DNA of 57,198 bases from Bacilli bacterium (GTDB lineage Bacteria > Bacillota_I > Bacilli_A > RFN20 > CAG-826), in assembly GCA_024408235.1 (NCBI GenBank), contig JAKSVF010000008.1:1-57198 (forward strand), read 5' to 3'. A model generated the notes under the pieces. That model saw only the letters and a list, made by a program, of their open reading frames with translations. It did no database searches and was not told the origin of the DNA. The first letter of the stretch is position 1. Every line of letters begins with the position of its first letter. Made by a program: the position numbers and the translations under genes. Shown here one piece after another: positions 4,025 to 38,786 of this stretch.

Positions 4025-4287
4025 AAAATAAAACGTCCCCTGATGTAGAGGACGAATTTCTCGTGTTACCACCTCATTTTAAGTTAGGCTCACACCTAAC
4101 TCCTTAGCATCTAATCTATGGTGATTAGACATCCGCTGTATCGGGCGGCCCCGGCGATTGCAGCTCCAGAATGTAATTCGCAAACACGTCATGTAATCCT
4201 TTCAGCATCCGGATTCTCTCTAGACATGATTATGTGTTCGCTACTCGGTTTCCTTCATAGCCTGGCAATATATTATCACTTCTTTCC
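4025..4287 (-). promoter_or_regulatory. T-box riboswitch leader of tyrS (Tyr specifier)
   Basis: Read on the minus strand, the leader has the Stem I distal signature (AGAGAG then GGATGCTGAAA), a T-box core AGGTGGTAACACG at about 4062-4075 and an intrinsic terminator (7-bp stem, 4034-4040 with 4048-4054, followed by TTTTATTTT). The likely specifier codon is UAC (4173-4175) followed by A, a few bases before a GGAGC segment, which matches tyrosine. Uncharged tRNA-Tyr should pair with the specifier and the T-box bulge and stabilise the antiterminator. A second UAC at 4193-4195 is a less likely specifier by position. The leader explains the whole 384-nt gap between tyrS and the response regulator together with the divergent promoters. 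Confidence 0.93.
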
Positions 4288-21086: not shown

Positions 21087-21839
21087 TTAAGCGCCTAAGT
21101 AAGCTTTTCTGACGTCCTCATCCTCCAAGAGCTCTTTACCTGTACCGGTCTTTGTTATCAATCCGGTTTCGATAACGTATGCTCTATCGGCGATGGACAA
21201 CGCTTTTTTTGCGTTCTGTTCAACGAGGACGACAGTGGTGCCTTCCTTATTGATTTCTTTTATCGTCTTAAAGATGATGTCGACATATAAAGGCGAAAGG
21301 CCCATAGATGGCTCATCGAGAAGAAGCACCTTTGGGTGTGCCATCATTGCACGGCCTACCGCTAACATTTGCTGCTCGCCACCAGATAAAGTGCCTGCTG
21401 TTTGTTTTGATCTTTCAAGCAAGATTGGGAATTTTTCGTAGACATTCTTTAGAGTGTCTTCGATTTCCTTTTTGCTGTTTCTTGTATAAGCGCCCATCAA
21501 GAGATTGTCCTTAACGCTTAATTCGGAGAAGACATGACGTCCCTCTGGCACTTGGCTCAATCCTAAATAAACGATTTTATTGGCAGCGGTTTTGGTAAGC
21601 TCCACCTGTTCAGGAGTAACTTCTCCTGTCTTCTTGTTCTTTTTGTCGGCCATGAGTTTGATTGTTCCCTCTTTTGCCTTAAGAAGACCGGAAATTGCGT
21701 GGATGATAGTTGTCTTGCCAGCGCCGTTAGCGCCGATTAGAGCGACGATTTCGCCCTCATTTACCTCAAAGGAAACGCCTTTGACGGCTTTAATCATGCC
21801 ATATGAGACATGTAAGTTATTTACTTCCAGTATCGCCAT
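21087..21839 (-). CDS. livF: Branched-chain amino acid ABC transporter ATP-binding protein LivF
   Basis: 250 residues from the ATG at 21839. An upstream in-frame ATG directly abuts the AGGAG, while this one is 9 nt from it, so it is preferred. Walker A is GANGAGKTT, the signature is LSGGEQQM and Walker B LLLDEPSMGL. The YGMIKAVKGVSF start and the short C-terminus are typical for LivF. With LivG it forms the ATPase pair of the importer on the inner membrane face. It overlaps livG by 23 nt and is last in the livJHMGF operon. Confidence 0.96.
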   Translation of the reverse strand: MAILEVNNLHVSYGMIKAVKGVSFEVNEGEIVALIGANGAGKTTIIHAISGLLKAKEGTIKLMADKKNKKTGEVTPEQVELTKTAANKIVYLGLSQVPEGRHVFSELSVKDNLLMGAYTRNSKKEIEDTLKNVYEKFPILLERSKQTAGTLSGGEQQMLAVGRAMMAHPKVLLLDEPSMGLSPLYVDIIFKTIKEINKEGTTVVLVEQNAKKALSIADRAYVIETGLITKTGTGKELLEDEDVRKAYLGA

Positions 21840-22614
21840 CGTCGTCATCTCCTAAATACGCTTTGATAACTTCAGGGTTTGATAATGCTTCTAAAGTCTG
21901 TCCTGATGTCAATGTCTGTCCAAAGCTTAAGACAGTTACCTCTTCGCAGATGCCTGAGACTAGTTTCATGTCATGCTCAATTAAGAGGATTGTCATATCA
22001 AACTTGTCACGGACTAATCTAATTGTGTCCATAAGTTCACGAGTCTCTTCAGGGTTCATGCCTGCAGCAGGTTCGTCGAGGAATAATATTTTTGGGTTTG
22101 TCGCAAGTGCTCTAGCGATTTCGAGTTTTCTCTGTTTTCCGTATGGAAGTGATGAAGCGAGTTCTTTTCTTTCCTCATATAATCCAAAAACCTTTAGTAA
22201 TTCTTTAGCTTCATCTCTCATCTTCTTCTCGTTATCGAAGTAGTGTTTTGTATGGAAGAATGACTGTATGATGTTGACTTTATATTCAGGTCTAGAACTC
22301 ATCGAAACCATAACGTTTTGAAGGACTGACATGTTGTTGAATAGTCGGATGTTCTGGAATGTACGAGAGATTCCCGCTCTAGCTACTTCTTTTTGTGCGA
22401 GACCAGTTATCTCTTTATCACACAAGAAGACTTTGCCTGACGTTGGCTTATATACTCCAGTTATGATGTTGAAGACGGTTGTTTTTCCAGCACCATTAGG
22501 GCCGATTAGACCGTAGATTTCGTTTTTCTTGATCTCTACATTGAAATTCTGGACCGCTTTTAATCCGCCGAATTGGATTGAGAGGTCTTCAGTTTTTAAG
22601 ATAATTTCTGCCAT
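21817..22614 (-). CDS. livG: Branched-chain amino acid ABC transporter ATP-binding protein LivG
   Basis: 265 residues with Walker A GPNGAGKTT, the LivG-typical FNIITGVYKPTSGKV and RTFQNIRLFNNMSVLQNV stretches, signature SLPYGKQRKLEIARAL and Walker B ILFLDEPAAGMNPEE. It ends in an acidic tail (DDDDGD) that overlaps livF. It partners LivF and powers LivH/LivM. Its first base overlaps the last base of the livM stop. Confidence 0.96.
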   Translation of the reverse strand: MAEIILKTEDLSIQFGGLKAVQNFNVEIKKNEIYGLIGPNGAGKTTVFNIITGVYKPTSGKVFLCDKEITGLAQKEVARAGISRTFQNIRLFNNMSVLQNVMVSMSSRPEYKVNIIQSFFHTKHYFDNEKKMRDEAKELLKVFGLYEERKELASSLPYGKQRKLEIARALATNPKILFLDEPAAGMNPEETRELMDTIRLVRDKFDMTILLIEHDMKLVSGICEEVTVLSFGQTLTSGQTLEALSNPEVIKAYLGDDDDGDTGSK

Positions 22615-23840
22615 TACTGTTTACCTCCATCTTCATTTTCAGGTAGATCTGGTAGTGGATCCGTTGTAACAATTGCATCCATTGGGATCTTAGTAGGGAT
22701 CTTTGACCAGTCTGCTGAATATGTTGGATCAATTTCTTTTTCAGGGTCGGTTGATTCTTTTTTAACGAGAGCTTTCTTAATCTTGTTGAATAAGGTGCGC
22801 ATGTTATATTTCTCGCGGAATGTCTTGGTAAATGATGCGTTGTTATAAATGACGACTACGATGAGAACAAGAGCGTAGATAACATTCTTCAAAGCGGCCA
22901 TATCTCCGCTCAATACGCTTTGTAATCTGTTGTTTAATAAGGCAACGACAACACCGGCGATGATAGAACCTTCAAGGTTGCCCATACCGCCTAAAACGAC
23001 GATGACCAAGATGTTGTTGATCGAATAGTTGTAGTCAAATTTAGCCGCAGCAAATGTGGATTGTGAAGCTCCGAAGAGAACGCCTGCAACGCCAGCGATA
23101 AACGACGAGATGACAAAGACGAATATCTTGTAGAAGACGACATTAACGCCCATTGCTCTAGCAGCGATTTCATTATCACGTATAGCCATTATGTTTCTGC
23201 CGTGCGGAGATCTAAGTAGGTTCCTAATCATGACAATGAACAGGAGTGCTACTGCAAATATGATTATGAATAACCAATGAGAATCGAAACGGTAGTCATG
23301 GATGAGACCGGTGGTGGACCAGACAGGTGAACCTTTTTTGTTGGTGATTGACTGAATGTCGATGTTCTGGAAGAAGACTTTGACAATTTCACCAAATGCG
23401 AGAGTAACAATTGCTAGATAATCACCCTTAAGTCTTAAAGCAGGCAAAGAGATGATGAATCCAAATATTGCCGCAATGGAACCGCCGACAATCATTGAAA
23501 TGAATAATGCGAGTGCAGCAGGGAATCCCTTATGGGAAGCAAGTCCTCCTAAAGCGATTTGTTGGAAGAACATTCCGGTGAATGCGCCTATGGACATGAA
23601 TCCTGCGTGTCCAAGAGATAATTCGCCTAAGAAGCCAACGACAAGTGATAAAGAGATGACGATGACGACTGTGTATCCAATCTGCTCAAATAATAAGTAA
23701 GTTGAGTTCCTTGGTATATCTGTAATCGTTAAGACGAGGCCAACAACAATGAATAATGCAAGTGATGCATACATCCAGTAGTTCCTGAGTGTTAAGCCTT
23801 TCTTGAAGTAAGAGAAGTATGATCTTTTTGTCTGTTCCAT
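22614..23840 (-). CDS. livM: Branched-chain amino acid ABC transporter permease LivM
   Basis: 408 residues with about nine hydrophobic segments. The LivM signatures VVGFLGELSLGHAGFMSIGAF and LRLKGDYLAIVTLAFGEI are present, and the EAA-like coupling region is around RNLLRSPHGRNIMAIRDNEIAARAMGVN. The last ~70 residues are a hydrophilic, acidic cytoplasmic tail rich in Asp, Glu and Pro, longer than in most LivM proteins. It forms the membrane channel with LivH. It starts 2 nt after the livH stop. Confidence 0.95.
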   Translation of the reverse strand: MEQTKRSYFSYFKKGLTLRNYWMYASLALFIVVGLVLTITDIPRNSTYLLFEQIGYTVVIVISLSLVVGFLGELSLGHAGFMSIGAFTGMFFQQIALGGLASHKGFPAALALFISMIVGGSIAAIFGFIISLPALRLKGDYLAIVTLAFGEIVKVFFQNIDIQSITNKKGSPVWSTTGLIHDYRFDSHWLFIIIFAVALLFIVMIRNLLRSPHGRNIMAIRDNEIAARAMGVNVVFYKIFVFVISSFIAGVAGVLFGASQSTFAAAKFDYNYSINNILVIVVLGGMGNLEGSIIAGVVVALLNNRLQSVLSGDMAALKNVIYALVLIVVVIYNNASFTKTFREKYNMRTLFNKIKKALVKKESTDPEKEIDPTYSADWSKIPTKIPMDAIVTTDPLPDLPENEDGGKQ

Positions 23841-23842
23841 AA

Positions 23843-24706
23843 CTATACCTTCTCTCTCTTAACCTTACCGAGTAATCCACTAGGTCTTACAAGGAGAATT
23901 AAGACTAATACTGCGAATTCAACTGCCATTGTGTAGCTCTGGAGTCCTGGAACTGCGTCGCAGAATGTTTCGATGAGACCCATAAGAATTCCACCGATCA
24001 TCGCGCCTGGGATAGAGCCAATACCGCCGATGACGGCAGCGCTGAATGCCTTGATGCCTGGTAATGATCCCATTGTGTATGTGACAAGTGGGGTCTTCAT
24101 TAACCAGAAGACGGCCGCAACAGCAGCGAGTGCACTGCCAATTGCAAATGTAATCATGACAACGACATTTACGTTGATGCCCATTAACTGAGCAGCGCCT
24201 CTATCTTCAGAGACTGCACGCATTGCTTTGCCGATTTTTGTGTAATTGATGAATAAAACGAGGCCAACCATGATTGCGACCGCAACGCCTAACGTGATGA
24301 GTGCTGTAGCGGTTGGGTTGCCTTGTAATGATTGGAAAAGGACAACGTTTTTTGGAGCGGAGCTAAATGTTAAATAAACGATAGACTCCATTAAGTAAGA
24401 GACACCGATAGCGGTGATGAGAATAGCAAGAGGAGAAGCGCCTCTAAGAGGTTTGTACGCGACCTTTTCAATCACTATTCCAAGTATTGTGCAGAAGACG
24501 ACTGCGATGATGATGCACAACCATATTGGCATGCCGAGCATCATGAATGTGACGTAAGCTGAATATGCACCAACCATGATGATGTCACCATGAGCGAAGT
24601 TAAGCATCTTAGCAATACCGTAGACCATTGTGTAGCCTAACGCGATAAGTGCATATACGCCACCTAGCGCGAGCGCGCCCAGCGTAAGAGATAAAAACTC
24701 AGGCAT
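23843..24706 (-). CDS. livH: Branched-chain amino acid ABC transporter permease LivH
   Basis: 287 residues from the ATG at 24706, which has AAAGGA 8 nt upstream; a longer reading lacks a ribosome site. It is almost wholly hydrophobic with about eight membrane segments. LivH hallmarks are GGVYALIALGYTMVYGIAKMLNFAHGD and the coupling helix TKIGKAMRAVSEDRGAAQLMGIN. It pairs with LivM. A stable hairpin between livJ and livH may lower its expression relative to the binding protein. Confidence 0.96.
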   Translation of the reverse strand: MPEFLSLTLGALALGGVYALIALGYTMVYGIAKMLNFAHGDIIMVGAYSAYVTFMMLGMPIWLCIIIAVVFCTILGIVIEKVAYKPLRGASPLAILITAIGVSYLMESIVYLTFSSAPKNVVLFQSLQGNPTATALITLGVAVAIMVGLVLFINYTKIGKAMRAVSEDRGAAQLMGINVNVVVMITFAIGSALAAVAAVFWLMKTPLVTYTMGSLPGIKAFSAAVIGGIGSIPGAMIGGILMGLIETFCDAVPGLQSYTMAVEFAVLVLILLVRPSGLLGKVKREKV

Positions 24707-24745
24707 AATTTCTGTCCTTTCTAACCATGTTTTTAAAAACGGAGA

Positions 24746-24772
24746 AAGGTGACCTTGGTTAAGGGCCACCTT
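24746..24772 (-). terminator. Intercistronic hairpin between livJ and livH
   Basis: A 9-bp stem AAGGTGGCC/GGTCACCTT (one wobble) lies 28 nt after livJ. The U-run comes only about 6 nt beyond the stem, so it is more likely a leaky terminator or a 3'-end stabiliser that lets livJ exceed the downstream genes, as is common for binding-protein genes. Confidence 0.55.
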
Positions 24773-24799
24773 CCTAAATTGTCATTTAATTATTAATAA

Positions 24800-25963
24800 T
24801 TAAGAATGAACACGATTTGGGTTGATTTCGAACTCTAATGGGGTCTTATCAACTGTGTTATCGGCATTCCACTTAACTCCGGTACCTGTAACGCCGTCGA
24901 ATGTATATGTCTTGATTTCTTCAGTCAAGATAGCATTGAGGTCCTTTGCAGCGATGTTGTTTGCGATTGAATTGCCCTTTGACTCATAGTTCTTCATCAT
25001 GCCGTAGATTGCATAGACGCAGTCATAAGCTGATGCTGCGAACTGGTTGAGCGATTTTGGATCGTATTTTGAGTTGTATGCAGAGACGAATGTTGAGGTA
25101 GCTGTAGCAGTTGATGCTGCATTGAAGTGTGAGAGCATTGAAATCTTCTGTGGGAATGAGTTAACGTCGAATCCTTCAACGCCATCGATTCCGTCAAGTC
25201 CATCAGCGCCGAAGTAGACTGCATTATCTGCGATCTTACCGAATGCTGCACGGATGAATGTTGTAGCTGGTGTGTAATAGATTGGGAGGAAGACAACATC
25301 ACAATCTTTTAATGTTGTAACCTGTCCGTCGAAGCTTGCTGTTGCGTCATCTGTGAATGTTGCTGTTGCTGTGATATTTGCTTCACCGAATTCTTTAGCG
25401 AAATTCTGGTAGATTCCCTTTGAATAGTCCTGTGCTGAGTTATATAAGACACCGACTTTCTTTCCTTTGTAGTATTCCTTAACGTACTTTGCAGCTGCTG
25501 TTCCCTGACCTGAGTCTGAGAAGCACATCTGATAGACGCCTGCTTTATAAACTGCGTCTGCTGTAGCTGAAGGTGTTAATTTGAAGACTTCGTTATTTTC
25601 ATCTGCGCCAGCGAAACCAACGCATGCACCTGATGTAACGCATCCGAGTGAGACCTGCATTCCAGATTCATAAAGAGTATTGAAGTTCTGTGCTGCAATT
25701 TCGCCATCGCCCTGGTCATCTTTTCCTGTGTAGCTGAATTTGAAGCCATCTGTCTGCTTAGCGTTAATCTCTTCTACCGCCATTTCAATTGCGTTCTTTA
25801 CGCCTGTTCCATAAATAGCATATGGACCTGTTAATGGACCGGAGTTTCCGATCATGATGGCTTTGTTATTGGCCGCGTAATTCTTTCCGCCGCATGCAGC
25901 GAGTAGAGCTACTGATGAGAAGGCCAAGACAGAAGCCGCAAATGTTTTGAGTGTGTTTTTCAT
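24800..25963 (-). CDS. livJ: Branched-chain amino acid-binding lipoprotein LivJ
   Basis: 387 residues. The N-terminus is a lipoprotein signal with lipobox LAAC and C24 as the lipidated cysteine. The mature protein is a type I periplasmic-binding fold of the Leu/Ile/Val family: IMIGNSGPLTGPYAIYG and GVKNAIEMAVEEINA near the start, then KKVGVLYNSAQDYSKG and VYFGADGLDG. It is tethered outside the membrane and hands amino acids to LivHM. GGGGGA precedes the ATG. It is first in the operon, directly behind a T-box leader. Confidence 0.96.
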   Translation of the reverse strand: MKNTLKTFAASVLAFSSVALLAACGGKNYAANNKAIMIGNSGPLTGPYAIYGTGVKNAIEMAVEEINAKQTDGFKFSYTGKDDQGDGEIAAQNFNTLYESGMQVSLGCVTSGACVGFAGADENNEVFKLTPSATADAVYKAGVYQMCFSDSGQGTAAAKYVKEYYKGKKVGVLYNSAQDYSKGIYQNFAKEFGEANITATATFTDDATASFDGQVTTLKDCDVVFLPIYYTPATTFIRAAFGKIADNAVYFGADGLDGIDGVEGFDVNSFPQKISMLSHFNAASTATATSTFVSAYNSKYDPKSLNQFAASAYDCVYAIYGMMKNYESKGNSIANNIAAKDLNAILTEEIKTYTFDGVTGTGVKWNADNTVDKTPLEFEINPNRVHS

Positions 25964-25982: not shown

Positions 25983-26280
25983 AAATAAACTCCTCTTAGT
26001 AGTTAAGAGACAGGTCTAAGAACCCTGTGGTACCACTCTTATTGTCACTTTAATTATTTAGTGACCACTCTTTTTGGCTATTACGGGCTACCCCGTCCGG
26101 TATTACTTTCAAGTGATTTCACCCGGCCGCTCATTCAGTGAGACCCTTGCATCTATTCGTCAGCCCATTTCACCATCCGAGCCTCTCTCTTCACGCTAGT
26201 TTTGCAAGAACATGTCTGAATTCAATCGCGTTTGTAGGGTCTATTTAAAAGGAAAATAACCAATTTTCAATGATTGGTTT
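25983..26280 (-). promoter_or_regulatory. T-box riboswitch leader of the liv operon (probable Leu specifier)
   Basis: On the minus strand the Stem I signature AGAGAG..GGATGGTGAAA is followed by a candidate specifier CUC at 26140-26142 (followed by A and, 7 nt later, GAGC, the same spacing pattern as in the tyrS leader), and later the T-box core AGAGTGGTACCACAGGG (26023-26040). A short terminator stem CTCTTA/TAAGAG with TTTATTTTC ends it 20 nt before livJ. CUC would make it sense uncharged tRNA-Leu; an AUG a few bases downstream is an alternative (Met) reading. Together with the promoter it accounts for the 423-nt gap between the livJ start and the ACT-domain gene. Confidence 0.9.
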
Positions 26281-26813: not shown

Positions 26814-29108
26814 TTATTTCTCCTCGACTGTAGCGCCGTCTTTATTAACTGATAAGCACATGAATCTATATTTCACAGAATAATTTTCTTTCTCCAATTT
26901 AGAGATGATAGATTCATCACTGCTTATTATGAGCAAAGTTGAACCAGAGCCTGATATGGTAAATGGGCATCCATTTGCTTTTGCTAATGCGCCTATCTTA
27001 TCGGCGTCCGGGATCAACTTTAATCTATATGGTGTGTGTATTTTATCTTCGATTAAACCGCACAACGATTTTACGTCTCCCTCCATATATGCTTTTGCCG
27101 TGTTCATAATTCTTGAGGAATTGAACTGGATATCTTTATAGGAAAGTGATTGTGGGAGAACTCCTCTAGAATCTTTTGTCTTAAGCTGTACATCTGGGAC
27201 GGCTAAGATGAATTTTAGTTTGTCAGATACAACGTACTGAACAGGATGATATTCATTTCCATCATTCCACGTTGCCACAAGCGAACCAAAGATCGCTGGG
27301 GCAGCGTTGTCTGGATGGCCTTCTAATTCAGTTGCTAATTCAAGTAACTGCAACTTGGAATATTTTCTATTGAGCATCTCGTTAGCAGCCATCAACCCCG
27401 CAACAATGCAAGTGGAAGAACTGCCCAATCCTCTTGATTCAGGAACGTTTGTCTCTAATAAAGTGATTTCGACAGGCAGATATGCGTCTCCATATCTCTC
27501 GAACAACCTTCTATATGACTTGAGGACTAAATTGTTGTCTTTGTATTCTGATTTGAATCCTTTTACTACGTCGTTTGCGTTTGGCTTGAATCCAAATTTG
27601 TTAAAAAGATTTAGCGCAATGCCAGCGACATCAAAACATGGTCCAAGATTGGCGCTTGTGGCTGGAACGCTAACTACCAATACCTTCTTAGAAAACAGAA
27701 CGTCTTCAACCTGACTCTTTTTCAATAAGTATCTAGGTGTTGCGACCTTCAAGACCTTTTCCAACTGAACAGGCATTTTTGTTCCCGTTAGATCTTGAAT
27801 CATTGTCATCGCTTTAACGACATCATCTTCTTTTTTATTGAAGACCTCGAGTATTGCCTCGGTGAATTTATATGGAGAGGCAGTGGAAACAACAAGAACT
27901 CTATTGCTTGTTGCCATACGTGTGTATGCACGATATGACACGGCTGTGTGTGGGTCTATTAAATAATTATATGTGTCAAAGCATTCTCTAATAGCTTCGA
28001 TAGTGTCTTTCTCGTTTACAGAATAAGCCTCAAATTCATTAAGCTTTTTCTTCATCGAATCACTGACCTTATATCCTTTTTTGTCGGACTTAAGATCCTT
28101 CATGTATGATCTAACTTCCTCATCGTTTTCGGCTAATAAATAAAGGAGTCTTTCAAGGTTAGATGAAATGAGGATATCCATAGAAGGAGAATTTGTTTTC
28201 TTAAATTCTCTGTCGATTGAATAAGTACCTGTCGTTAAGAAATCTGTTAAGACTCTATTTTCGTTTGAAGCACACACTATTTTGCCAAGAGGTGTACCCA
28301 TCTTTTTTGCTAAATAAGAAGCAAATATATTGCCGAAATTTCCAGTAGGAACGACAACATCTAACTCATCGCCCAAATTAATCTTTCCTGCATTTACCAA
28401 ATCGATATATGACTTGATGTAATAAACGATTTGAGGAACTAATCTGCCAATGTTAATCGAATTCGCACTGCTGACGATTACATCTTCATGCTGTTCGTTG
28501 AGTATTTTCTTCACAAAATTTTGACAGTCATCAAAGTTTGATTCATCGAGGGCATAGGCTCTACATTTATCCGATGTGAAATAGAGCATCTGCATTTCTT
28601 GGAATGCCGATATTCCGCCATGTGGGTAGAGGACTTTTACAGATATATCATCGCTTGAAATAAACGAGGATAAAGCAGCTGATCCTGTATCACCTGAAGT
28701 GGCGGTGACGATTTGAATTTTCTTTGTAATGCCGTTCTTCTTTTTTGCAACGCTCATGAGATGTGGCAATAGGGAAAGCGCCATGTCTTTAAACGTCGTG
28801 GTTGGTCCGTGGAATAACTCAAGAACTGAGAACTTATCTTCGTGGTGCAGTTGGATTGGGCCATCAGGGAAGTTGAATGCTCCGTACGCTTTCTTTACAC
28901 ATGATTCGATTTCATCTTTTGTGAAGTCATCGAGGTAAAGTGATAAAACGTAGCATGCTAACTCCTGATATGAAAGATTGAGCAATTTGCTGATGTCGAT
29001 AGATGGAATAGTCTCAGGAAGGAATAAGCCACCATCATCACTTAAACCTTTTAGGATCGCTTTGCTTGCGGTCACTCTTAATTTAGAATCTCTCGTTGAA
29101 TAAAACAT
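26814..29108 (-). CDS. thrC-thrB: Threonine synthase-homoserine kinase fusion
   Basis: 764 residues in one uninterrupted frame. Residues 1 to about 460 are threonine synthase of the ThrC type (YYSTR-like start, DDGGLFLPETIP, PLP-lysine K107 in HGPTTTFKDMAL, TSGDTGSAAL, VPTGNFGNIFASYLAKKMG). Residues about 475-764 are homoserine kinase, a GHMP kinase (VPATSANLGPCFDVAGIAL, ATP loop VPESRGLGSSSTC, GHPDNAAPAIFGSLV, and a C-terminal ISGSGSTLLII). One chain would thus catalyse homoserine to O-phosphohomoserine to threonine, with possible channelling. There is no homoserine dehydrogenase nearby. The start has no ribosome site and is predicted leaderless. The downstream ACT-domain gene is co-transcribed. 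Confidence 0.94.
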   Translation of the reverse strand: MFYSTRDSKLRVTASKAILKGLSDDGGLFLPETIPSIDISKLLNLSYQELACYVLSLYLDDFTKDEIESCVKKAYGAFNFPDGPIQLHHEDKFSVLELFHGPTTTFKDMALSLLPHLMSVAKKKNGITKKIQIVTATSGDTGSAALSSFISSDDISVKVLYPHGGISAFQEMQMLYFTSDKCRAYALDESNFDDCQNFVKKILNEQHEDVIVSSANSINIGRLVPQIVYYIKSYIDLVNAGKINLGDELDVVVPTGNFGNIFASYLAKKMGTPLGKIVCASNENRVLTDFLTTGTYSIDREFKKTNSPSMDILISSNLERLLYLLAENDEEVRSYMKDLKSDKKGYKVSDSMKKKLNEFEAYSVNEKDTIEAIRECFDTYNYLIDPHTAVSYRAYTRMATSNRVLVVSTASPYKFTEAILEVFNKKEDDVVKAMTMIQDLTGTKMPVQLEKVLKVATPRYLLKKSQVEDVLFSKKVLVVSVPATSANLGPCFDVAGIALNLFNKFGFKPNANDVVKGFKSEYKDNNLVLKSYRRLFERYGDAYLPVEITLLETNVPESRGLGSSSTCIVAGLMAANEMLNRKYSKLQLLELATELEGHPDNAAPAIFGSLVATWNDGNEYHPVQYVVSDKLKFILAVPDVQLKTKDSRGVLPQSLSYKDIQFNSSRIMNTAKAYMEGDVKSLCGLIEDKIHTPYRLKLIPDADKIGALAKANGCPFTISGSGSTLLIISSDESIISKLEKENYSVKYRFMCLSVNKDGATVEEK

Positions 29109-30570: not shown

Positions 30571-30598
30571 TTGACATATTTTCTAACACTATCACAAT
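30571..30598 (+). promoter_or_regulatory. Promoter of the aromatic amino acid operon
   Basis: A perfect -35 TTGACA (30571-30576), a 16-nt spacer and CACAAT (30593-30598, 4 of 6). The next ATG follows after exactly 6 nt, so the leader peptide would begin at the first base of the mRNA. Confidence 0.6.
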
Positions 30599-30604
30599 GG
30601 TGCC

Positions 30605-30685
30605 ATGGAACTCGCTAGATCAACTAGAGCTTATTACGAATTTAGCTTCTACTATGGAAGCTACTTTTACTTTAGTCAGATTTAG
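30605..30685 (+). CDS. Aromatic-rich leader peptide of the aromatic amino acid operon
   Basis: A 26-codon frame (ATG 30605, TAG 30683-30685) encodes ten aromatic residues: Tyr at 10, 11, 16, 17, 20, 22 and Phe at 13, 15, 21, 23. Such density is far beyond chance and mirrors attenuation leaders such as pheL. It precedes pheA and the shikimate genes. Its stop codon touches the antiterminator strand, so ribosome position on the Tyr/Phe codons can decide RNA folding. There is no ribosome-binding site; the ATG is predicted to be at +1. A TAGCTTC/GAAGCTA hairpin (30643-30649 with 30657-30663) lies inside the Phe-Tyr codons. Confidence 0.8.
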   Translation: MELARSTRAYYEFSFYYGSYFYFSQI

Positions 30686-30751
30686 CCAGCACCTCGTTAC
30701 TATAAGACAAAACGATTGAGAGAATGCTGGCAACCGCCGGCATTTTATTTT
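30685..30751 (+). terminator. Attenuator: antiterminator strand and intrinsic terminator
   Basis: A 9-bp terminator stem (AATGCTGGC 30723-30731 with GCCGGCATT 30736-30744, loop AACC) is followed by a T-rich tract. GCCAGCA at 30685-30691 is perfectly complementary to TGCTGGC (30725-30731) in the 5' arm, giving a mutually exclusive antiterminator. A ribosome terminating at 30683-30685 would cover GCCAGCA and allow termination; one stalled on Tyr/Phe codons would leave it free. Downstream to 30832 there is a CATCTT/AAGATG hairpin, an AAAGGAG and a hairpin before pheA. Confidence 0.82.
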
Positions 30752-30832
30752 ATCGGCTCATCTTAAAAAGATGGCGTTATTAATCGTGAAAGGAGATAAT
30801 TCTATTCGATAATCGAAAGAATTAGAGCAAGT

Positions 30833-31930
30833 ATGGATGATTTAAAGAAAGCAAGAGAATCGATAAATGAGATCGATGAGGAAATGGCTAAGCTTTTTGA
30901 AAAGAGAATGCAAGCCGCAAGCAGTATCGCAAAGTATAAAAAGGAGCACGGTCTTCCTATTACCGATGCCAAACGCGAAGCTGAATTAATCGAAAAGAAT
31001 CAAGAAAGAGTTAATGACCCTGTTATTCGTGAGTACTACACTCAATATTTAAGAGCGATGTTTAAAGTATCTAAAGAATATCAGCACAGGCTCAATAGTG
31101 GCGCATCCATAGCCTATTGTGGCGTACCTGGAGCTTATGCTTATTTAGCTGCTTCTAAACTATCTGGCACCTCAGGATTAAAGAACTACTCTTCTTTTAA
31201 AAAAGCGTATGACTCTGTCCTTGAAGGAGATTGCGACGGCGCTGTTCTTCCAATTGAAAACAGCTATGCCGGAGACGTTGGAGCCGTAATGGATTTGGCA
31301 TTCCAAGGCCCATTATATATTTCTCAGATTGTTGAATTGGAAATCACCCATGCTTTACTTGCTAAAAAAGGAACCAAGATCGACGACGTTAAAGTCGTAT
31401 GGAGCCATCCACAGGCTTTGTCCCAGTGTGATGAATACATAAACACACACGGTTTTGAGACGGTAGAACATTCAAATACCGCGGTAGCATGCAAAGAATT
31501 ATCTGAATCAAGCGAAGAAGGCGTTGCGGTTATCGCTTCTCCTGAAAACGCTCAGATATATGGTTTAGAGATACTCGAAAGAGGAATCAATTCGGCTGCA
31601 AACAACACAACTAAGTTCGGTTTATTCACTCGAGCGTACTCAAAGCCATCGCCAGAAGCAAAAACCGGCGAACATTTCGTCCTCGTCTTCACCGTTACAA
31701 ATGAGGCCGGTGCTTTAGCAAAGGCATTGAACATAATTGGTTCGCATTATTTCAATATGAAGAACCTCCGTTCAAGACCATTAAAGGGTTTGATGTGGAA
31801 TTATTATTTCTTCTGTGAGTTAGAAGGAAACATCAACACACCAGATGGTGAAGACATGCTTATCGAACTTAAGACTATTTGCGATAAGGTCAAGGTGCTT
31901 GGCACTTACTTTTTTACCAAGGAGCATTAA
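30833..31930 (+). CDS. pheA: Bifunctional chorismate mutase/prephenate dehydratase
   Basis: 365 residues, in three parts: an AroQ-type chorismate mutase (1 to about 85, DDLKKARESINEIDEEMAKLFEKR), a prephenate dehydratase (about 92-270, with GVPGAYAYLAASK, LPIENSYAGDVG and the NNTTKF substrate motif), and a C-terminal ACT domain (EAGALAKALNIIG...NMKNLRSRP) for phenylalanine feedback. It converts chorismate to phenylpyruvate. It is the first structural gene behind the attenuator. The best ribosome site, AAAGGAG at 30789-30795, is 37 nt before the ATG with a hairpin (about 30801-30823) between; only a weak AGAG lies at normal spacing. Confidence 0.95.
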   Translation: MDDLKKARESINEIDEEMAKLFEKRMQAASSIAKYKKEHGLPITDAKREAELIEKNQERVNDPVIREYYTQYLRAMFKVSKEYQHRLNSGASIAYCGVPGAYAYLAASKLSGTSGLKNYSSFKKAYDSVLEGDCDGAVLPIENSYAGDVGAVMDLAFQGPLYISQIVELEITHALLAKKGTKIDDVKVVWSHPQALSQCDEYINTHGFETVEHSNTAVACKELSESSEEGVAVIASPENAQIYGLEILERGINSAANNTTKFGLFTRAYSKPSPEAKTGEHFVLVFTVTNEAGALAKALNIIGSHYFNMKNLRSRPLKGLMWNYYFFCELEGNINTPDGEDMLIELKTICDKVKVLGTYFFTKEH

Positions 31931-31932
31931 TT

Positions 31933-32940
31933 ATGATTTTGAGAGTTGAGACGAACCCATCCTACGATGTCGTAATTGAAAGAGGCGCATTAAATAATGT
32001 CGGCTCCCTTTTCAATCTGGATAGAAAAGTCTTGGTTCTCACGGATGATGGAGTTCCTTTCTGCTATGCAGAGGCTGTAGCAAACTCTTCAAAAGAAGGA
32101 CACATCTTTGTGATTCCACACGGAGAACAGTCTAAATGCATGGATAGTCTCCAAGGAATACTCTCGTTCATGCTCGATCACGAGTTTTCAAGGAAGGATG
32201 CGATTGTAGCGGTTGGTGGAGGCGTCTGTGGTGACTTGGGCGGATTTGCTGCGAGCATCTATATGAGAGGCATTGAGTTTTACAACGTTCCAACAACCCT
32301 TCTATCGATGGTTGATTCATCGATTGGAGGAAAGACCGCTATAGATTTTGATGGATATAAAAATGTTGTAGGTGCATTTTATCAACCATCAAAAGTTCTC
32401 ATTGATCCAAATGTGCTATCAACCCTCGATGATAGGCAGCTCCATGCTGGTCTTGTTGAGGCCATCAAAATGGCAGCAACATTTGACAAGGATCTTTTCG
32501 AGGTTATCGAGAAATCTGACAGCATAGAGAATGACATAGAAGTCATCATAGGTGGTGCACTTGCTATAAAGAAGGATGTTGTTGAGAAAGACACTAAGGA
32601 ATCGGGTCTAAGGAAAGTCCTTAACTTTGGGCACACAATCGGACACGCAATTGAAGCGGATGCAAATGGAGAACTACTCCACGGCGAATGCGTTGGAATC
32701 GGGATGATGTATGTTACTAAGGGCGATGTTAAAGATCGCATTGAAAACCTGCTTAACAAATACAATGTTCCAACCACTTATGAGGCTAAAACTGAGGATT
32801 TGATGAAGTTTGCAACTCATGACAAGAAGGCCTCACATGGTGAAGTTGATTTGGTCATTTGCAATGAAATCGGAACTTTTGAAATTAAGAAAATACCAGT
32901 AGAAACACTGGAAAAGATAATGGAAGGGGAAAGGCTATGA
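31933..32940 (+). CDS. aroB: 3-dehydroquinate synthase
   Basis: 335 residues. It cyclises DAHP to 3-dehydroquinate using NAD and a divalent metal. Conserved blocks are VGGGVCGDLGGFAASIYMRGI, TTLLSMVDSSIGGKTAID, the metal-binding region LVEAIKMA and NFGHTIGHAIEA. AAGGAG precedes the ATG, which is 2 nt after the pheA stop. It is slightly short at the C-terminus compared with the common 340-360 residues. Confidence 0.97.
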   Translation: MILRVETNPSYDVVIERGALNNVGSLFNLDRKVLVLTDDGVPFCYAEAVANSSKEGHIFVIPHGEQSKCMDSLQGILSFMLDHEFSRKDAIVAVGGGVCGDLGGFAASIYMRGIEFYNVPTTLLSMVDSSIGGKTAIDFDGYKNVVGAFYQPSKVLIDPNVLSTLDDRQLHAGLVEAIKMAATFDKDLFEVIEKSDSIENDIEVIIGGALAIKKDVVEKDTKESGLRKVLNFGHTIGHAIEADANGELLHGECVGIGMMYVTKGDVKDRIENLLNKYNVPTTYEAKTEDLMKFATHDKKASHGEVDLVICNEIGTFEIKKIPVETLEKIMEGERL

Positions 32941-34025
32941 GAAATACATTAGGACATAACGTAACACTCACAATCTTCGGAGAATCTCATGGACCAGCGA
33001 TTGGGGCCGTTATAGATGGACTCCCTGGCGGAATTAAGGTGTCTGAGGATTCAATCAAGGCTGCTTTAGACAAGAGAAGGCCATCAAACAAGGGCGAAAC
33101 ATCTCGAGTTGAAAAGGATAGTTTTTCTATCGTCTCTGGTGTTTTCAATGGCTACACAAACGGAAATGCTGTCACCATTCTCATTCCAAATAGCGACACA
33201 CATTCAAATGACTATGAGGCAAATAAAGGTTTAGCCAGACCATCACATGCCGATTATGTTGCTCACGAGAAATACAATGGTTATGAAGATTATCGTGGAG
33301 GCGGACATTTCTCCGGAAGAATTACTGCTGCAATCGTTGCCGCTGGCGCAATCGTTATTGACGCTCTAGAGGCAAAAGGAATTAAGATTGGTACGCACAT
33401 TGAACAGCTTGGTTCTGTTAAGGATACAAGATTTGACGTCCTCAATCCTGAAATTGACGCAGTTAATGCGAAGTCCTTCCCAACAATTAAGGATGTTAGC
33501 GATGAAATGCTTAAAGAAATGGAGAGCGCTGGAAAGGACATGGATTCCGTTGGTGGAATAGTTGAAGGCGCTGTTGCCGGTTTACCAGTTGGTTTAGGCG
33601 AGCCTTGGTTCTCATCGGTTGAAGGGGAGCTTGCAAACGCTTTATTCTCCATCGGAGGTGTTAAAGGAATCGAATTTGGATTGGGCTTTGGTTTTGCATC
33701 TTCTCATGGGTCAGAGGTCAATGATCCATTAACGGTTGCAGATGGAAAAGTAGGTACAACCTCAAATAATAACGGTGGAATTAATGGAGGCATTACAAAC
33801 GGAATGCCAGTCATCTTCAGATGCGCCATCAAGCCAACTCCATCGATTGCTAAAGAACAAAACACCGTTAATTTCCTAACGGGTGATAACGCGAAGCTTT
33901 CAATCGTTGGTAGACATGATCCTGCAATTGTGAGAAGGATCGCTCCTATTCTTCGCGCGATTACATCTTTTGTCATTGCAGATTTACTATCAATCGAATG
34001 GGGAAGGAATTTCTTGGTAAAATAG
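32937..34025 (+). CDS. aroC: Chorismate synthase
   Basis: 362 residues. It converts EPSP to chorismate with reduced FMN. The signature regions are LTIFGESHGPAIGAVIDG near the start, RPSHADYVAHEKYNG, GGGHFSGRITAA and the C-terminal RHDPAIVRRIAPILRA. The start overlaps the aroB stop by 4 nt (ATGA). A flavin reductase partner is not in the operon; the EFR1-type protein elsewhere in the window could supply electrons, but that is speculation. Confidence 0.97.
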   Translation: MRNTLGHNVTLTIFGESHGPAIGAVIDGLPGGIKVSEDSIKAALDKRRPSNKGETSRVEKDSFSIVSGVFNGYTNGNAVTILIPNSDTHSNDYEANKGLARPSHADYVAHEKYNGYEDYRGGGHFSGRITAAIVAAGAIVIDALEAKGIKIGTHIEQLGSVKDTRFDVLNPEIDAVNAKSFPTIKDVSDEMLKEMESAGKDMDSVGGIVEGAVAGLPVGLGEPWFSSVEGELANALFSIGGVKGIEFGLGFGFASSHGSEVNDPLTVADGKVGTTSNNNGGINGGITNGMPVIFRCAIKPTPSIAKEQNTVNFLTGDNAKLSIVGRHDPAIVRRIAPILRAITSFVIADLLSIEWGRNFLVK

Positions 34026-34027
34026 TT

Positions 34028-35260
34028 ATGAAGTACGGATTAATCGGAGAGAAGCTAGGTCATTCCTACTCTAAGGATATCCACGAGAAACTCGCGGATT
34101 ACACATATGACATAAAAGAGATTGCTAGAGAGGACCTCGACGCTTTCATCGAAGCTAGAGACTTTAAGGCAATCAATGTCACAATCCCGTATAAGCAGGA
34201 CGTTATCAAACACCTTGATTGGAAGTCAGAGGCGTTAGAGGCAATTGGAGCGTGCAACGCAATTGTCAATAGAGACGGAAAACTCTATGGATATAACTTT
34301 GATGCTGCTGGTTTAGAGGCGCTTATTAACCACGCAAAGGTCGACGTTAAAGACAGAAGCGTTGTCATCCTTGGGAATGGTGGCACAAGCAAAACCGCTC
34401 AGTATGTCGTTAAGAAACTAGGGTGCAAATCCTTATTAGTGGCTTCAATATTTGATGAGCCAAACACGATCAAATACGAAGACATTCCGTCGGATGTTGA
34501 AATCATTGTTAATACAACGCCATGCGGAATGTATCCAAATAACTACACACAGGCCGTATCTTTAGTGAAGTTTAAGAATCTTAAGGGATTAATCGACGTT
34601 GTATATAACCCGCTCAGAACCCAATTGGTGATTGAGGCTCAGAAGAGAGGCATTCCGGCTGAATCTGGATTATATATGCTTGTTGCTCAGGCTTTCTATG
34701 GGGCTCAGGAATTCACCGGAAAGACGCTTGACCCAAAGAAGATTGATGAAATATACAACGAACTTCTTAAAAAGAAGAGGAATGTTGTTTTGATTGGCAT
34801 GCCAACATGCGGCAAGACGACAACAGGTAAGAAACTTGCACCGATGCTCAATAAGCAGTTCCTCGACACCGATGAACTTATATTGAAGATGATAGATGGA
34901 CCTATCTCTGATTATATCCATAAAAATGGCGAGCAGAAATTCAGGGACCTTGAGACTGAGGTTGTTAAAGAAACCGCTAAGCAGGCCGGCTCAATCATCG
35001 CAACAGGCGGTGGTGCAATTCTTAGAGAGAAAAACGTAGACGCTTTAAGGCAAAATGGGGTCATCTATTTCTTGGATAGACCGCTCTCTGAACTTCAAGT
35101 CGCCTCAGATAGACCTTTATCAAGTTCTAGAGAGGCGTTGACCAAAATGTTTGGTGATAGATACAACATCTACTGTGATTGTGCCGATAAGATCATCGAC
35201 GCAAAAGGCAAAGGTGTTACTGGAATTGTTAACAAAATCAAGAAGGAGGAATCCAGATGA
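34028..35260 (+). CDS. aroE-aroK: Shikimate dehydrogenase-shikimate kinase fusion
   Basis: 410 residues from the ATG at 34028, 2 nt after aroC; a longer reading into aroC is unlikely because MKYGLIGEKLGHSYS is the classic AroE start. Residues 1 to about 245 are AroE (NVTIPYK with the catalytic lysine, YGYNFDAAG, NGGTSKTAQY nucleotide loop). Residues about 252-410 are shikimate kinase with P-loop GMPTCGKTT at 257-265, DTDELI for Mg/shikimate binding, FRDLETEVV and IATGGGAI. One protein would carry out two successive pathway steps, dehydroshikimate to shikimate to shikimate 3-phosphate. Confidence 0.95.
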   Translation: MKYGLIGEKLGHSYSKDIHEKLADYTYDIKEIAREDLDAFIEARDFKAINVTIPYKQDVIKHLDWKSEALEAIGACNAIVNRDGKLYGYNFDAAGLEALINHAKVDVKDRSVVILGNGGTSKTAQYVVKKLGCKSLLVASIFDEPNTIKYEDIPSDVEIIVNTTPCGMYPNNYTQAVSLVKFKNLKGLIDVVYNPLRTQLVIEAQKRGIPAESGLYMLVAQAFYGAQEFTGKTLDPKKIDEIYNELLKKKRNVVLIGMPTCGKTTTGKKLAPMLNKQFLDTDELILKMIDGPISDYIHKNGEQKFRDLETEVVKETAKQAGSIIATGGGAILREKNVDALRQNGVIYFLDRPLSELQVASDRPLSSSREALTKMFGDRYNIYCDCADKIIDAKGKGVTGIVNKIKKEESR

Positions 35261-35685
35261 AAATCCTAGTAGTAAATGGGCCAAACCTTAATATGCTTGG
35301 CATTAGAGAGCCTGGTATCTACGGCAAGGCAACATATGAAGACCTTCTTAAATTAATCAAGGAATACGCAGATGGAAAAGGCGTAGAAGTCTCTTTCTTC
35401 CAATCTAATCACGAAGGCGCTTTGGTGGACGCAATCCAGCAGGCGTATTTCGATAAGGTTGATGGCATCGTGATTAATCCAGGTGCCTACACCCATACTA
35501 GTGTTGCGATACTCGATGCGCTCAAAGCGGTTGCAATCCCAACAATCGAAGTTCACATCTCTGACGTCACGACCAGAGAAGACTTCAGACAAATAAGCTA
35601 TATCAGACCTGTCTGCAAAGCGTCTGTTATCGGTGAAGGTTTTAATGGATACCTTCATGCGATAGACATCCTTTTAGGAGATTAA
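35257..35685 (+). CDS. aroQ: 3-dehydroquinate dehydratase, type II
   Basis: 142 residues, the usual length of the dodecameric type II enzyme. It dehydrates 3-dehydroquinate to 3-dehydroshikimate. VNGPNLNMLGIREPGIYG carries the catalytic arginine and tyrosine; QSNHEGALVDAI, NPGAYTHTSVAI and EVHISDV are the other conserved blocks, with the catalytic histidine in VHISD. The ATG overlaps the aroE-aroK stop (ATGA). Confidence 0.97.
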   Translation: MKILVVNGPNLNMLGIREPGIYGKATYEDLLKLIKEYADGKGVEVSFFQSNHEGALVDAIQQAYFDKVDGIVINPGAYTHTSVAILDALKAVAIPTIEVHISDVTTREDFRQISYIRPVCKASVIGEGFNGYLHAIDILLGD

Positions 35686-35689
35686 ATTA

Positions 35690-36883
35690 ATGGATCTAAC
35701 CCTCAAGAAAGGAAAACCTACTGGAGTAATATCCGCTCCACCATCGAAGAGTTTTGCCCATCGCTATCTCATCGGGGCCATGTTATCCGGCGATTCTAAA
35801 GTCGGCAATCTTTCATATAGCCAAGACGTCTTAGCAACGCTCAACTGCCTTAATGCGTATGGTGTTTCTTTCTTTAAGGAAAATGATTCAGTTTCAATCA
35901 ACGGAACTAGCGACGTAAAGCCAGTCTTTAATTGCAATGAATCTGGGTCCACCCTCAGGTTCTTCATTCCGATCGCGATGAGCAAGTACCAGGAGGCTAT
36001 GTTTACTGCGACACCTAGATTGCTTGAAAGAGGAATTGATGCCTACGAAGAATGCCTTAAAGGTGTTGTTAGTTTTGCAAATGTAGATGGCGCTTTAAAG
36101 GCAAAGGGCAAGCTCATCCCGAAGGATTATGTTATAGATGGAAGTAAATCCAGCCAGTACATATCGGGTATGTTATTTACATTGCCGCTGCTTGATGGAG
36201 ATTCAACATTGACCATCAAAGGTGAATTGAATAGCAAACCATACATCGACATGACTATAGATGTCCTAAGAAAATATGGTATTGAGGTTAAAGAGGTGGG
36301 TAACGTCTATTACGTTAGAGGAAACCAGAAGTATAAGCCTCTCACAATAGAAAACGAGGGCGATTACTCAAACGCAGCGTTCTTGTCGGCCTTCAATTAT
36401 TTAGGAGGTAACCTTGATGTTAAGGGCCTAAACCCAAATTCACTCCAGGGTGACAAGGTTTATATCAATAACTTCAGAAAACTCTCCGTCGGATATTGCG
36501 TAATCGACTGTGAGAACTGCATTGACCTTTCTCCTGTTATGTTCTCCTTGGCGTCACTCTTGCATGGTGCGAAGTTCATAAACACCAAGCGACTCGCAAT
36601 TAAAGAAAGCAATCGCGCACTGGCGATGAAAGAAGAACTCGAAAAAGCGGGTGCTCATGTGCTGGTTTCGGATAATGAGGTAATTGTGGAGAAGGCTAAA
36701 GACATCCCTGCATCATTAAAGATAAGCTCCCACAACGATCACCGCATCGCGATGGCAATGTCTTTATACGCAACTCAATGCGATATAACAATTCAAGGCT
36801 ATGAATGCGTCAGCAAATCATACCCGGATTACTTTGATAAATTACAAGAATTAGGAATGGAGGTTACATATGCAACTACCTAA
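35690..36883 (+). CDS. aroA: 3-phosphoshikimate 1-carboxyvinyltransferase (EPSP synthase)
   Basis: 397 residues, somewhat shorter than the usual 420-440. It joins PEP to shikimate 3-phosphate. PPSKSFAHRYLIGAML holds the conserved lysine/serine/arginine site; NESGSTLRFFIPIA, SSQYISGMLFTLPL, IKESNRALAMKEELEKAG and HNDHRIAMAMSL are the other typical blocks. The NESGSTLRF sequence differs from the common NAGTxxR type, which may matter for glyphosate sensitivity (class not assignable by eye). TAGGAG precedes the ATG. Confidence 0.95.
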   Translation: MDLTLKKGKPTGVISAPPSKSFAHRYLIGAMLSGDSKVGNLSYSQDVLATLNCLNAYGVSFFKENDSVSINGTSDVKPVFNCNESGSTLRFFIPIAMSKYQEAMFTATPRLLERGIDAYEECLKGVVSFANVDGALKAKGKLIPKDYVIDGSKSSQYISGMLFTLPLLDGDSTLTIKGELNSKPYIDMTIDVLRKYGIEVKEVGNVYYVRGNQKYKPLTIENEGDYSNAAFLSAFNYLGGNLDVKGLNPNSLQGDKVYINNFRKLSVGYCVIDCENCIDLSPVMFSLASLLHGAKFINTKRLAIKESNRALAMKEELEKAGAHVLVSDNEVIVEKAKDIPASLKISSHNDHRIAMAMSLYATQCDITIQGYECVSKSYPDYFDKLQELGMEVTYATT

Positions 36884-37721
36884 ACAAATATTGATAGTCG
36901 GCTTAGGCCTCCTCGGAGGCTCATATGCCGAAGCCTTGACAGCCAAAGGATATGAAGTGTCCGCAATAGCCCATAGGCAATCATCAATTGACTACGCTAC
37001 TAAAAAAGGCTTGATAAAGTCCGGTACGACCGAAGTTGATAAAGACTTCGTCTCCCAGTTTGATTTGGTTGTATTCGCCTTATATCCGCATATTCTCGTA
37101 GAATGGCTGGAACAGTATCACACATATTTAAAAAATGGGGCGATTCTCACCGATGTTACCGGTGTTAAGAGGGCAATCATCCCTTCTGTGAAGGAAATCA
37201 TTAAAGATGATCCTGTAGAGTTCGTCTTCGCTCACCCTATGGCGGGTAGAGAGGTGTATGGAGTTGAAAACGCGACATCTGAGATATTCAAGAAGGCTAA
37301 CTTTATTGTCACTCCAACCCCGGATAATAAAGAAGATTCAGTGCAGATGATTGAACTTCTCGGAAACGAAATTGGTTCTCATCACGTTGCAAGGCTCACT
37401 CCTGAGATGCACGACGAGATGATTGGCTATGTATCTCAATTAACACATGTCATCGCAGTCTCCTTGATGACCGCGAAAGATTGCGACTCTTTATATGAGT
37501 ACACGGGAAACTCATTTAGAGACTTAACTAGAATTGCTGACATCAATGAGAACATGTGGTCAGAGTTGTTCTTGGATAACAAAGATGAACTCTTAGCTCA
37601 AATCGATTTATTTATGGGCGAGATGGCAAAAATGAGAGAAGCCTTGGATAAAGGCGATGTCGAGACGATGAAAGAGATGATGAGACTATCATCCGAAAGA
37701 AGAAAGAAATTTAGAGGATAG
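36870..37721 (+). CDS. tyrA: Prephenate dehydrogenase
   Basis: 283 residues. It oxidatively decarboxylates prephenate to 4-hydroxyphenylpyruvate for tyrosine synthesis. The Rossmann loop is VGLGLLGGSYAEAL; the catalytic histidine region is FAHPMAGRE, and the SQLTHVIA helix is typical of the dimerisation domain. There is no chorismate mutase or ACT domain, so tyrosine feedback on the enzyme is not apparent and control may rest on transcription. It overlaps aroA by 14 nt with GGAGG upstream of the ATG. Confidence 0.95.
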   Translation: MQLPKQILIVGLGLLGGSYAEALTAKGYEVSAIAHRQSSIDYATKKGLIKSGTTEVDKDFVSQFDLVVFALYPHILVEWLEQYHTYLKNGAILTDVTGVKRAIIPSVKEIIKDDPVEFVFAHPMAGREVYGVENATSEIFKKANFIVTPTPDNKEDSVQMIELLGNEIGSHHVARLTPEMHDEMIGYVSQLTHVIAVSLMTAKDCDSLYEYTGNSFRDLTRIADINENMWSELFLDNKDELLAQIDLFMGEMAKMREALDKGDVETMKEMMRLSSERRKKFRG

Positions 37722-37724
37722 AAA

Positions 37725-38786
37725 ATGAACATGAAACATAAACGCGAGCTTCCTACTCCAGAAGAGTTGAAGCGCATGTACCCAATGGGTGCTGAGCTAG
37801 CTGCGACAAAGAAGAAAAACGATGAAGAAGTTAGAAAGATTTTCACCGGTGAATCCGATAAGTTCCTTCTGATTATTGGCCCTTGCTCTGCAGATAGAGA
37901 AGATGCTGTCCTGGATTACATCGGCAGACTCAAAAAGATATATGACAAGATTAACGATGTCATTACAATTGTTCCTCGCATTTACACGAATAAGCCTAGA
38001 ACAACTGGTGTTGGCTATAAGGGAATGCTCCATCAGCCTGACCCAAACAAAGATCCAGACTTGTTAAAGGGCGTAATCGCAATCAGGAAATTGCATATGA
38101 AGGCTATTAGAGACACAGGATTCAGCTGTGCTGATGAAATGCTCTATCCTGAGAACTATGCTTACCTCAATGACTGTCTTTCATATATCGCAGTTGGCGC
38201 ACGTTCAGTTGAAGATCAGCAGCACAGATTGACCGCATCCGGTATTGATGTGCCTGTTGGCATGAAGAATCCAACATCTGGCGACTTAACGGTCATGCTC
38301 AACTCAATTTCAGCGGCACAACACGAACAAACATTCATTTATCGTGGATGGGAAGTTGATACAACAGGAAACCCTCTTGCGCACGCTATCTTGCGTGGAT
38401 ATGTCGATGAAAAAGGTACTATGGGCTCCAACTATCATTACGAGACATTAGCAATGCTTGCTTCAACTTATAACAGCGAGCATTTCAACAATCCTGCAAT
38501 TATTGTCGACTGCAACCACTGTAACTCGGGAAAGAAGTATCTTGAACAAGTCCGCATTGCCTCGGAAATCATGCACTACATGAAAGTGTCTCCATCAATC
38601 AGAAATGTTGTTAAAGGCTTGATGATTGAGTCTTACATCGAAGACGGATGCCAAAAGGTATCTGATGGCGTATATGGCAAGTCAATTACTGACCCATGCC
38701 TTGGCTGGGAGAAGACAGAAGAAATGTTGCTCTCTATGGCCGCTGAGTTAAGGGAAATTAGAGAACTTAGGAAACAAGGCAAATAA
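37725..38786 (+). CDS. aroF: 3-deoxy-7-phosphoheptulonate synthase (DAHP synthase, type I-alpha)
   Basis: 353 residues, similar in length to AroF/G/H of enterobacteria. It condenses PEP and erythrose 4-phosphate, the first shikimate step. Visible blocks are LLIIGPCSADREDAVLDY (metal cysteine), VPRIYTNKPRTTGVGYKGMLH, ADEMLYPENYAYLNDCLSYIAVGARSVEDQQHR, GMKNPTSGD and VDCNHCNSGKK. The feedback ligand cannot be told from sequence. Being last in the operon is unusual for a first-step enzyme, but the genes upstream overlap or are tightly spaced so dosage should be coordinate. Choice between two nearby ATGs (37725 or 37731) is open. Confidence 0.95.
   Translation: MNMKHKRELPTPEELKRMYPMGAELAATKKKNDEEVRKIFTGESDKFLLIIGPCSADREDAVLDYIGRLKKIYDKINDVITIVPRIYTNKPRTTGVGYKGMLHQPDPNKDPDLLKGVIAIRKLHMKAIRDTGFSCADEMLYPENYAYLNDCLSYIAVGARSVEDQQHRLTASGIDVPVGMKNPTSGDLTVMLNSISAAQHEQTFIYRGWEVDTTGNPLAHAILRGYVDEKGTMGSNYHYETLAMLASTYNSEHFNNPAIIVDCNHCNSGKKYLEQVRIASEIMHYMKVSPSIRNVVKGLMIESYIEDGCQKVSDGVYGKSITDPCLGWEKTEEMLLSMAAELREIRELRKQGK

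Follow-up and report, generated by a model that had tools for sequence, protein, structure and literature searches.

The 57,198-nt stretch of DNA analysed here (the window) contains, in front of an operon for the synthesis of phenylalanine and tyrosine, a region that sequence comparison and folding models mark as very probably a ribosome-mediated transcription attenuator, one of a wider set that includes leaders in front of TrpX-like transporter genes. For Bacillota, the control of aromatic amino acids is most often ascribed to T-boxes or TRAP. The sequence-only reading of the window had given this as the background, and it needs qualification since leader peptides are not foreign to the phylum: His leader peptides are known for Bacillus hisS*/hisZ (PMC2965389) and a Leu leader for the Staphylococcus aureus ilv-leu operon (PMC5794164). 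Like the element proposed here, these are Bacillota leader-peptide attenuators in the place of T-boxes, and they differ from it in amino acids and genes. The mechanism itself is classical, of the pheL/aroR type; the novelty lies in its application to Tyr and Phe in Bacilli and in its order-wide spread.

The leader region of the aro-phe-tyr operon

The operon downstream of the region (Table 1) had been described as providing all seven shikimate steps, and this is correct: its eight genes account for all seven and add pheA and tyrA. The host is an uncultured Bacilli bacterium with a 1.66 Mb draft genome. Its nearest named PheA relative (89% identity) comes from “Bacillales bacterium UBA1744”, now Caryophanales bacterium UBA1744, of class Bacilli, and PheA of the window type was found in only 5 of the 37 genomes of the genus. 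Six species, belonging to two genera, carry a leader in front of this operon. In the window's own species (G000) and in G001, G010 and G011, referred to below as class 1, it lies directly 5' of pheA, and in G013 and G049 it lies 5' of an aminotransferase gene, which is itself situated before pheA.

Table 1 Features of the leader region, the downstream operon and T-boxes of the same genome. Positions refer to the window unless another contig is given.
Feature	Position	Strand	Remark
Promoter	30571-30598	+	-35 TTGACA 30571-30576; weak -10 CACAAT 30593-30598
Leader peptide ORF	30605-30685	+	MELARSTRAYYEFSFYYGSYFYFSQI*; homologous ORFs in five other species
Candidate pause hairpin	30643-30663	+	within the Tyr/Phe codons; from folding
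GCCAGCA, antiterminator 5' arm (segment 2)	30685-30691	+	its first G ends the TAG stop codon
TGCTGGC, terminator 5' arm and antiterminator 3' arm (segment 3)	30725-30731	+	from complementarity
Intrinsic terminator hairpin with U-rich tail	30721-30753	+	stem 30721-30731/30736-30746; tail ATTTTAT
pheA, chorismate mutase-prephenate dehydratase	30833-31930	+
aroB, 3-dehydroquinate synthase	31933-32940	+
aroC, chorismate synthase	32937-34025	+
aroE-aroK fusion, shikimate dehydrogenase and shikimate kinase	33998-35260	+
aroQ, type II 3-dehydroquinate dehydratase	35257-35685	+
aroA, EPSP synthase	35690-36883	+
tyrA, prephenate dehydrogenase	36870-37721	+
aroF, DAHP synthase (type I)	37725-38786	+
T-box, UAC (Tyr) specifier	4045-4267	-	directly before tyrS 2787-4004 (-)
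T-box, UUC (Phe) specifier	contig 72 of G000, 28059-28257 (L065)		before pheS-pheT
T-box, apparent AUC (Ile) specifier	26003-26235	-	before Liv-type branched-chain ABC transporter 21817-25963 (-)

The leader ORF was previously read as a 26-codon frame with ten Tyr/Phe codons, and this is exact: 6 Tyr and 4 Phe codons among 26, in front of an operon that makes both amino acids. No other ORF on either strand of the whole window has 6 or more aromatic residues within a stretch of 10, and none of 4000 simulated intergenic regions reached at least 10 Tyr/Phe residues at a share of at least 38%. Such low chance estimates, together with the conservation of the leader in six species and the 64 transporter leaders of the same plan described below, make it extremely improbable that we are looking at a constitutive terminator next to a chance aromatic ORF with no regulation at all.

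The TTGACA hexamer is present at the corresponding position in all six aro leaders. No Shine-Dalgarno site was found for the window leader or for that of G001, and in these two the ATG follows the -10 element at a spacing of 6-7 bases (about 7 nt in the window); GGAG is present in the leaders of G010, G011, G013 and G049. Lacking such a site, the window leader would have to be translated leaderless or with weak initiation, and its message may indeed be leaderless. The candidate pause hairpin is also found in G001, and G010 and G011 have another hairpin in the same place.

An intrinsic terminator is located between the leader and the first gene, with its stem at 30721-30731/30736-30746 where 30723-30751 had been given before. 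The RNA from leader to terminator folds with a z-score of -5.36 (0 of 200 shuffles as good), and the 71-nt region from stop codon to tail with a z-score of -3.4. The earlier observation that GCCAGCA begins in the leader stop codon and complements the terminator 5' arm was likewise confirmed; a 7-base exact complement to this arm near the stop codon is expected by chance in approximately 0.9% of random stretches.

From these elements, their conservation and the folding logic described below we infer the following course of events, including the stalling of the ribosome, the termination and the responses to the two amino acids. RNA polymerase would start near position 30605 and a ribosome would translate the leader. 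With Tyr-tRNA and Phe-tRNA charged, the ribosome would reach the TAG codon (30683-30685) and cover GCCAGCA, so that the terminator (30721-30746) could form and transcription would stop. If charged tRNA for Tyr or Phe ran short, the ribosome would stall on an aromatic codon and leave GCCAGCA free to pair with TGCTGGC while the terminator 3' arm was still to be made; with this antiterminator formed, the polymerase would read into the whole operon.

Two further conserved hairpins are present between the terminator and pheA, and being placed 3' of the terminator and just before pheA they could control RNA stability or translation. The effect of the aromatic codons might accordingly be exerted by translational coupling, Rho or RNA decay, with no part for the intrinsic terminator. 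We regard this as improbable, because an intrinsic terminator with a U-tract was found in 69 of the 70 leaders scored and because it is the 5' arm of the terminator that is the target of the switch. As to the sequences themselves, a small hairpin CATCTTAAAAAGATG (30759-30773) directly 3' of the terminator occurs in all four class-1 species. The segment 30788-30833 consists of the purine-rich GAAAGGAGAU, then a hairpin at 30800-30821 and then the pheA ATG; this hairpin is kept in the four species with altered letters and could possibly bring a distant Shine-Dalgarno site to the pheA start codon.

Conservation and ribosome-dependent folding

Comparison of the six aro leaders reveals an aromatic core that is maintained while the N-terminus diverges (YEFSFYYGSYFYF, ATFSFYFSGYFYF, SSFYYGYFYC, SSYYYDYYYYR), and the differences in Tyr codons between close species pairs are synonymous. 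GCCAGC/GCTGGC is invariant in the four class-1 species, where the spacer is hardly and the flanks are poorly conserved, and GCCAGC (bases 1-6 of GCCAGCA) is post-stop and non-coding in two of them and lies within the coding frame in the other two. All ten terminator pairs are kept in class 1, with wobble pairs and one double change. The antiterminator pairing is lengthened to 11 bases in G010, where G-C replaces an A-U pair, and is broken at one position in G011. An alignment of relatives had been proposed as a check for conserved aromatic codons and compensatory changes. The codons are conserved as predicted; of strict compensatory changes in the four-species antiterminator there is only one pair, and that count alone does not exceed shuffled controls, because the helix hardly varies.

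Since pair-counting on four sequences offers too little variation to decide the matter, we turned to a switch score compared with shuffles for all leaders, given below. For the folding of each leader, the ribosome was placed either on a Tyr/Phe codon or on the stop codon, and the RNA was masked to 12 nt downstream. In all four class-1 leaders the antiterminator was the most favourable structure with a stalled ribosome, up to the point at which the 3' arm of the terminator was made (except for the last Phe codon in G010 and G011), and a ribosome at the stop codon gave the terminator and no antiterminator. A mutually exclusive antiterminator that depends on the position of the ribosome is thus found in silico. 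At equilibrium the full class-1 RNA favours the terminator, except in G010, and the switch must therefore be kinetic, as in known attenuators.

The leaders of G013, G049 and G058 have a five-segment cascade instead, with the same outcome. Segment A, CCGTTTT-GC just 3' of the stop codon, pairs with B (GCGAA-CGG in G013 and G049), and the alternatives are B:C, pairing of C with the terminator 5' arm D, and D:E. In the folding model, a ribosome at the stop codon masks A, so that B:C and D:E form and transcription terminates, a result that was stable for footprints of 10, 12 and 15 nt; a stalled ribosome leaves A free, and A:B and C:D form at every Tyr/Phe codon when judged before the 3' arm exists. 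G058 preserves the cascade pairings with different letters. The his attenuator of Escherichia coli and Salmonella is also a multi-segment cascade of alternative hairpins, serving another amino acid, and the window has the simpler three-segment form. The two layouts agree in the direction of regulation, which argues strongly that the ribosome is the sensor.

The switch score was defined as the upstream pairing of the terminator 5' arm with a stalled ribosome minus that with a ribosome at the stop codon, and for the control the region between codon and arm was shuffled. For 29 dereplicated leaders the mean was 0.29 against 0.04 for shuffled sequences (sd 0.04, maximum 0.13, 60 rounds), and for a second set of 27 other leaders collected later it was 0.28 against 0.03 (maximum 0.14, 50 rounds), figures that do not count as independent trials, given the common descent of the leaders. 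Taken by themselves, the six aro leaders averaged 0.355, which is below their own shuffled maximum of 0.367. G049 shows no difference in pairing score, yet its minimum-energy folds do switch. Taken across the relatives, conservation, terminator, antiterminator and ribosome-position logic hold, and they support the proposal of ribosome-mediated attenuation made in the sequence-only reading.

An aro operon without a leader had been named in advance as evidence against the proposal. The case does occur: eleven relatives with an aro operon have neither a leader nor a T-box 5' of it. The eleven genomes show that the leader on the aro operon is lineage-specific and not that it fails where it is found. 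In the genus search the class-1 model R1 found no copies beyond its four source sequences; its other matches were weak, and two that were inspected held no convincing leader. Among weaker R2 matches, those in G016 and G117 were rejected as leaders, and those in G133 and G140 gave no convincing leader on inspection. In G245 (L034) the region 5' of pheA lacks both a leader ORF and a T-box and has a terminator, GGGCGAGCC...GGGCTCGC TTTTATTTT, whose 3' arm is complementary to AAAAGCGAG further upstream; this element is perhaps another kind of attenuator.

T-boxes and tested attenuators

The window's genome contains 11 T-boxes, among them one for Tyr and one for Phe (Table 1), while a third has a UGG (Trp) specifier and lies before a TrpX-like gene. 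The specifiers were identified visually on the Rfam alignments and the sequences; a family match confirmed PheT, and PheS was assigned from its position. Given so many T-boxes, the leader region might itself be a T-box, or some other riboswitch that binds tRNA or a ligand, with the ORF being incidental. This can be considered highly unlikely. At 30571-30832 there was no Rfam match, even at permissive thresholds, and neither the RF00230 core nor a specifier loop was found there (matches exist at two other sites of the window), so that a T-box or other Rfam element was rejected for the locus; moreover, what is conserved between the two layouts is the ORF rather than a fixed RNA fold. From the sequences, the Tyr and Phe synthetases look T-box controlled and the biosynthetic operon leader-peptide controlled. 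In the Bacillus cereus group a Tyr T-box precedes a tyrosine biosynthesis operon (PMC2494555); there, too, uncharged tRNA-Tyr is sensed in a member of the Bacillota and Tyr synthesis is controlled, but the RNA binds the tRNA directly without a leader peptide, whereas in the window's genome the Tyr T-box is found on tyrS.

In plan the proposed attenuator resembles pheL-pheA and pheM-pheST of Gammaproteobacteria, which have an aromatic leader, a stop codon near the antiterminator arm and a terminator before the gene; the gene behind pheL likewise encodes a chorismate mutase-prephenate dehydratase. The likeness is one of plan only, as pheL and pheM use Phe alone, while the window has Tyr and Phe codons, a Bacilli host and a whole-shikimate operon. 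The closest tested leader is aroR of Corynebacterium glutamicum, a Phe and Tyr codon leader before an operon with a DAHP synthase gene; it differs in its actinobacterial host and in its short Phe-Tyr-Phe run compared with the 10 Tyr/Phe codons here, and it responds to Phe and not to Tyr (PMC11802643).

That a single leader would sense both Tyr and Phe is what we infer for the window. The response of aroR raises the alternative that the leader responds to only one of the two, the other codons being passengers, and the aro leader of G049, with 8 Tyr and no Phe codons, points in the same direction. We consider this possible though rather unlikely, since the window leader contains both codons in number, G000-type leaders retain both Tyr and Phe across the whole control region, and both amino acids are made by the operon. 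In the leader-like ilvB region of Streptomyces coelicolor, codon changes did not give classical attenuator behaviour (PMC1262725), and in view of this result and the Phe-only response of aroR (PMC11802643) dual sensing by the present leader should be taken as putative.

Transporter leaders across the order

A search with a model of the second layout found two additional leaders. One lies in front of a lipoprotein gene whose product is a TrpX-like ABC substrate-binding protein; the closest full-length relatives of this protein match Pfam PF04392, and NCBIfam NF041285 below its cutoff. In the family, one query gave relatives in 36 of 224 genomes; a different query, run across the order, gave them in 72 of 279. 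A Tyr/Phe-rich leader precedes the TrpX-like gene at 64 of the 68 loci with enough upstream sequence (L083-L119 and L120-L159), compared with 1 of 40 loci when the same criterion was applied to the antisense strand in the second batch, and these leaders span four families of the order (f1, f2, f6 and f8). A terminator follows the stop codon in 63 of the 64, and in the second set no shuffled region was as good. The first set of transporter leaders contains 170 Tyr, 74 Phe and 2 Trp codons. Many transporter leaders are also without a clear Shine-Dalgarno site.

It seems fairly probable that these leaders constitute an order-wide Tyr/Phe-sensing regulon in an uncultured order of Bacilli, comprising an aromatic-type ABC transporter in at least four families and the aro-phe-tyr operon in two genera, beside the Tyr and Phe T-boxes. 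The same uncharged tRNAs would then be read by two unrelated mechanisms, the synthetases by T-box and the supply genes by leader, which if true provides a natural comparison of two ways of sensing the same tRNA. Leaders with mainly or only Tyr codons would to our knowledge be the first clear Tyr-sensing leader-peptide attenuators. No Tyr leader-peptide attenuator of Bacillota turned up in the literature, which is weak evidence of absence with subscription papers mostly out of reach. From the leaders one could further predict Tyr/Phe as the substrate of individual ABC transporters, and leader-peptide attenuators are missed by searches for fixed RNA families.

TrpX-like genes for which the upstream region was checked and no leader found are those of G092, G095 and G111 (genus g13) and the transporter of G049. 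A short upstream frame, MSRNLFLYSY, is common to the three genus g13 loci (L154, L159 and L157, respectively).
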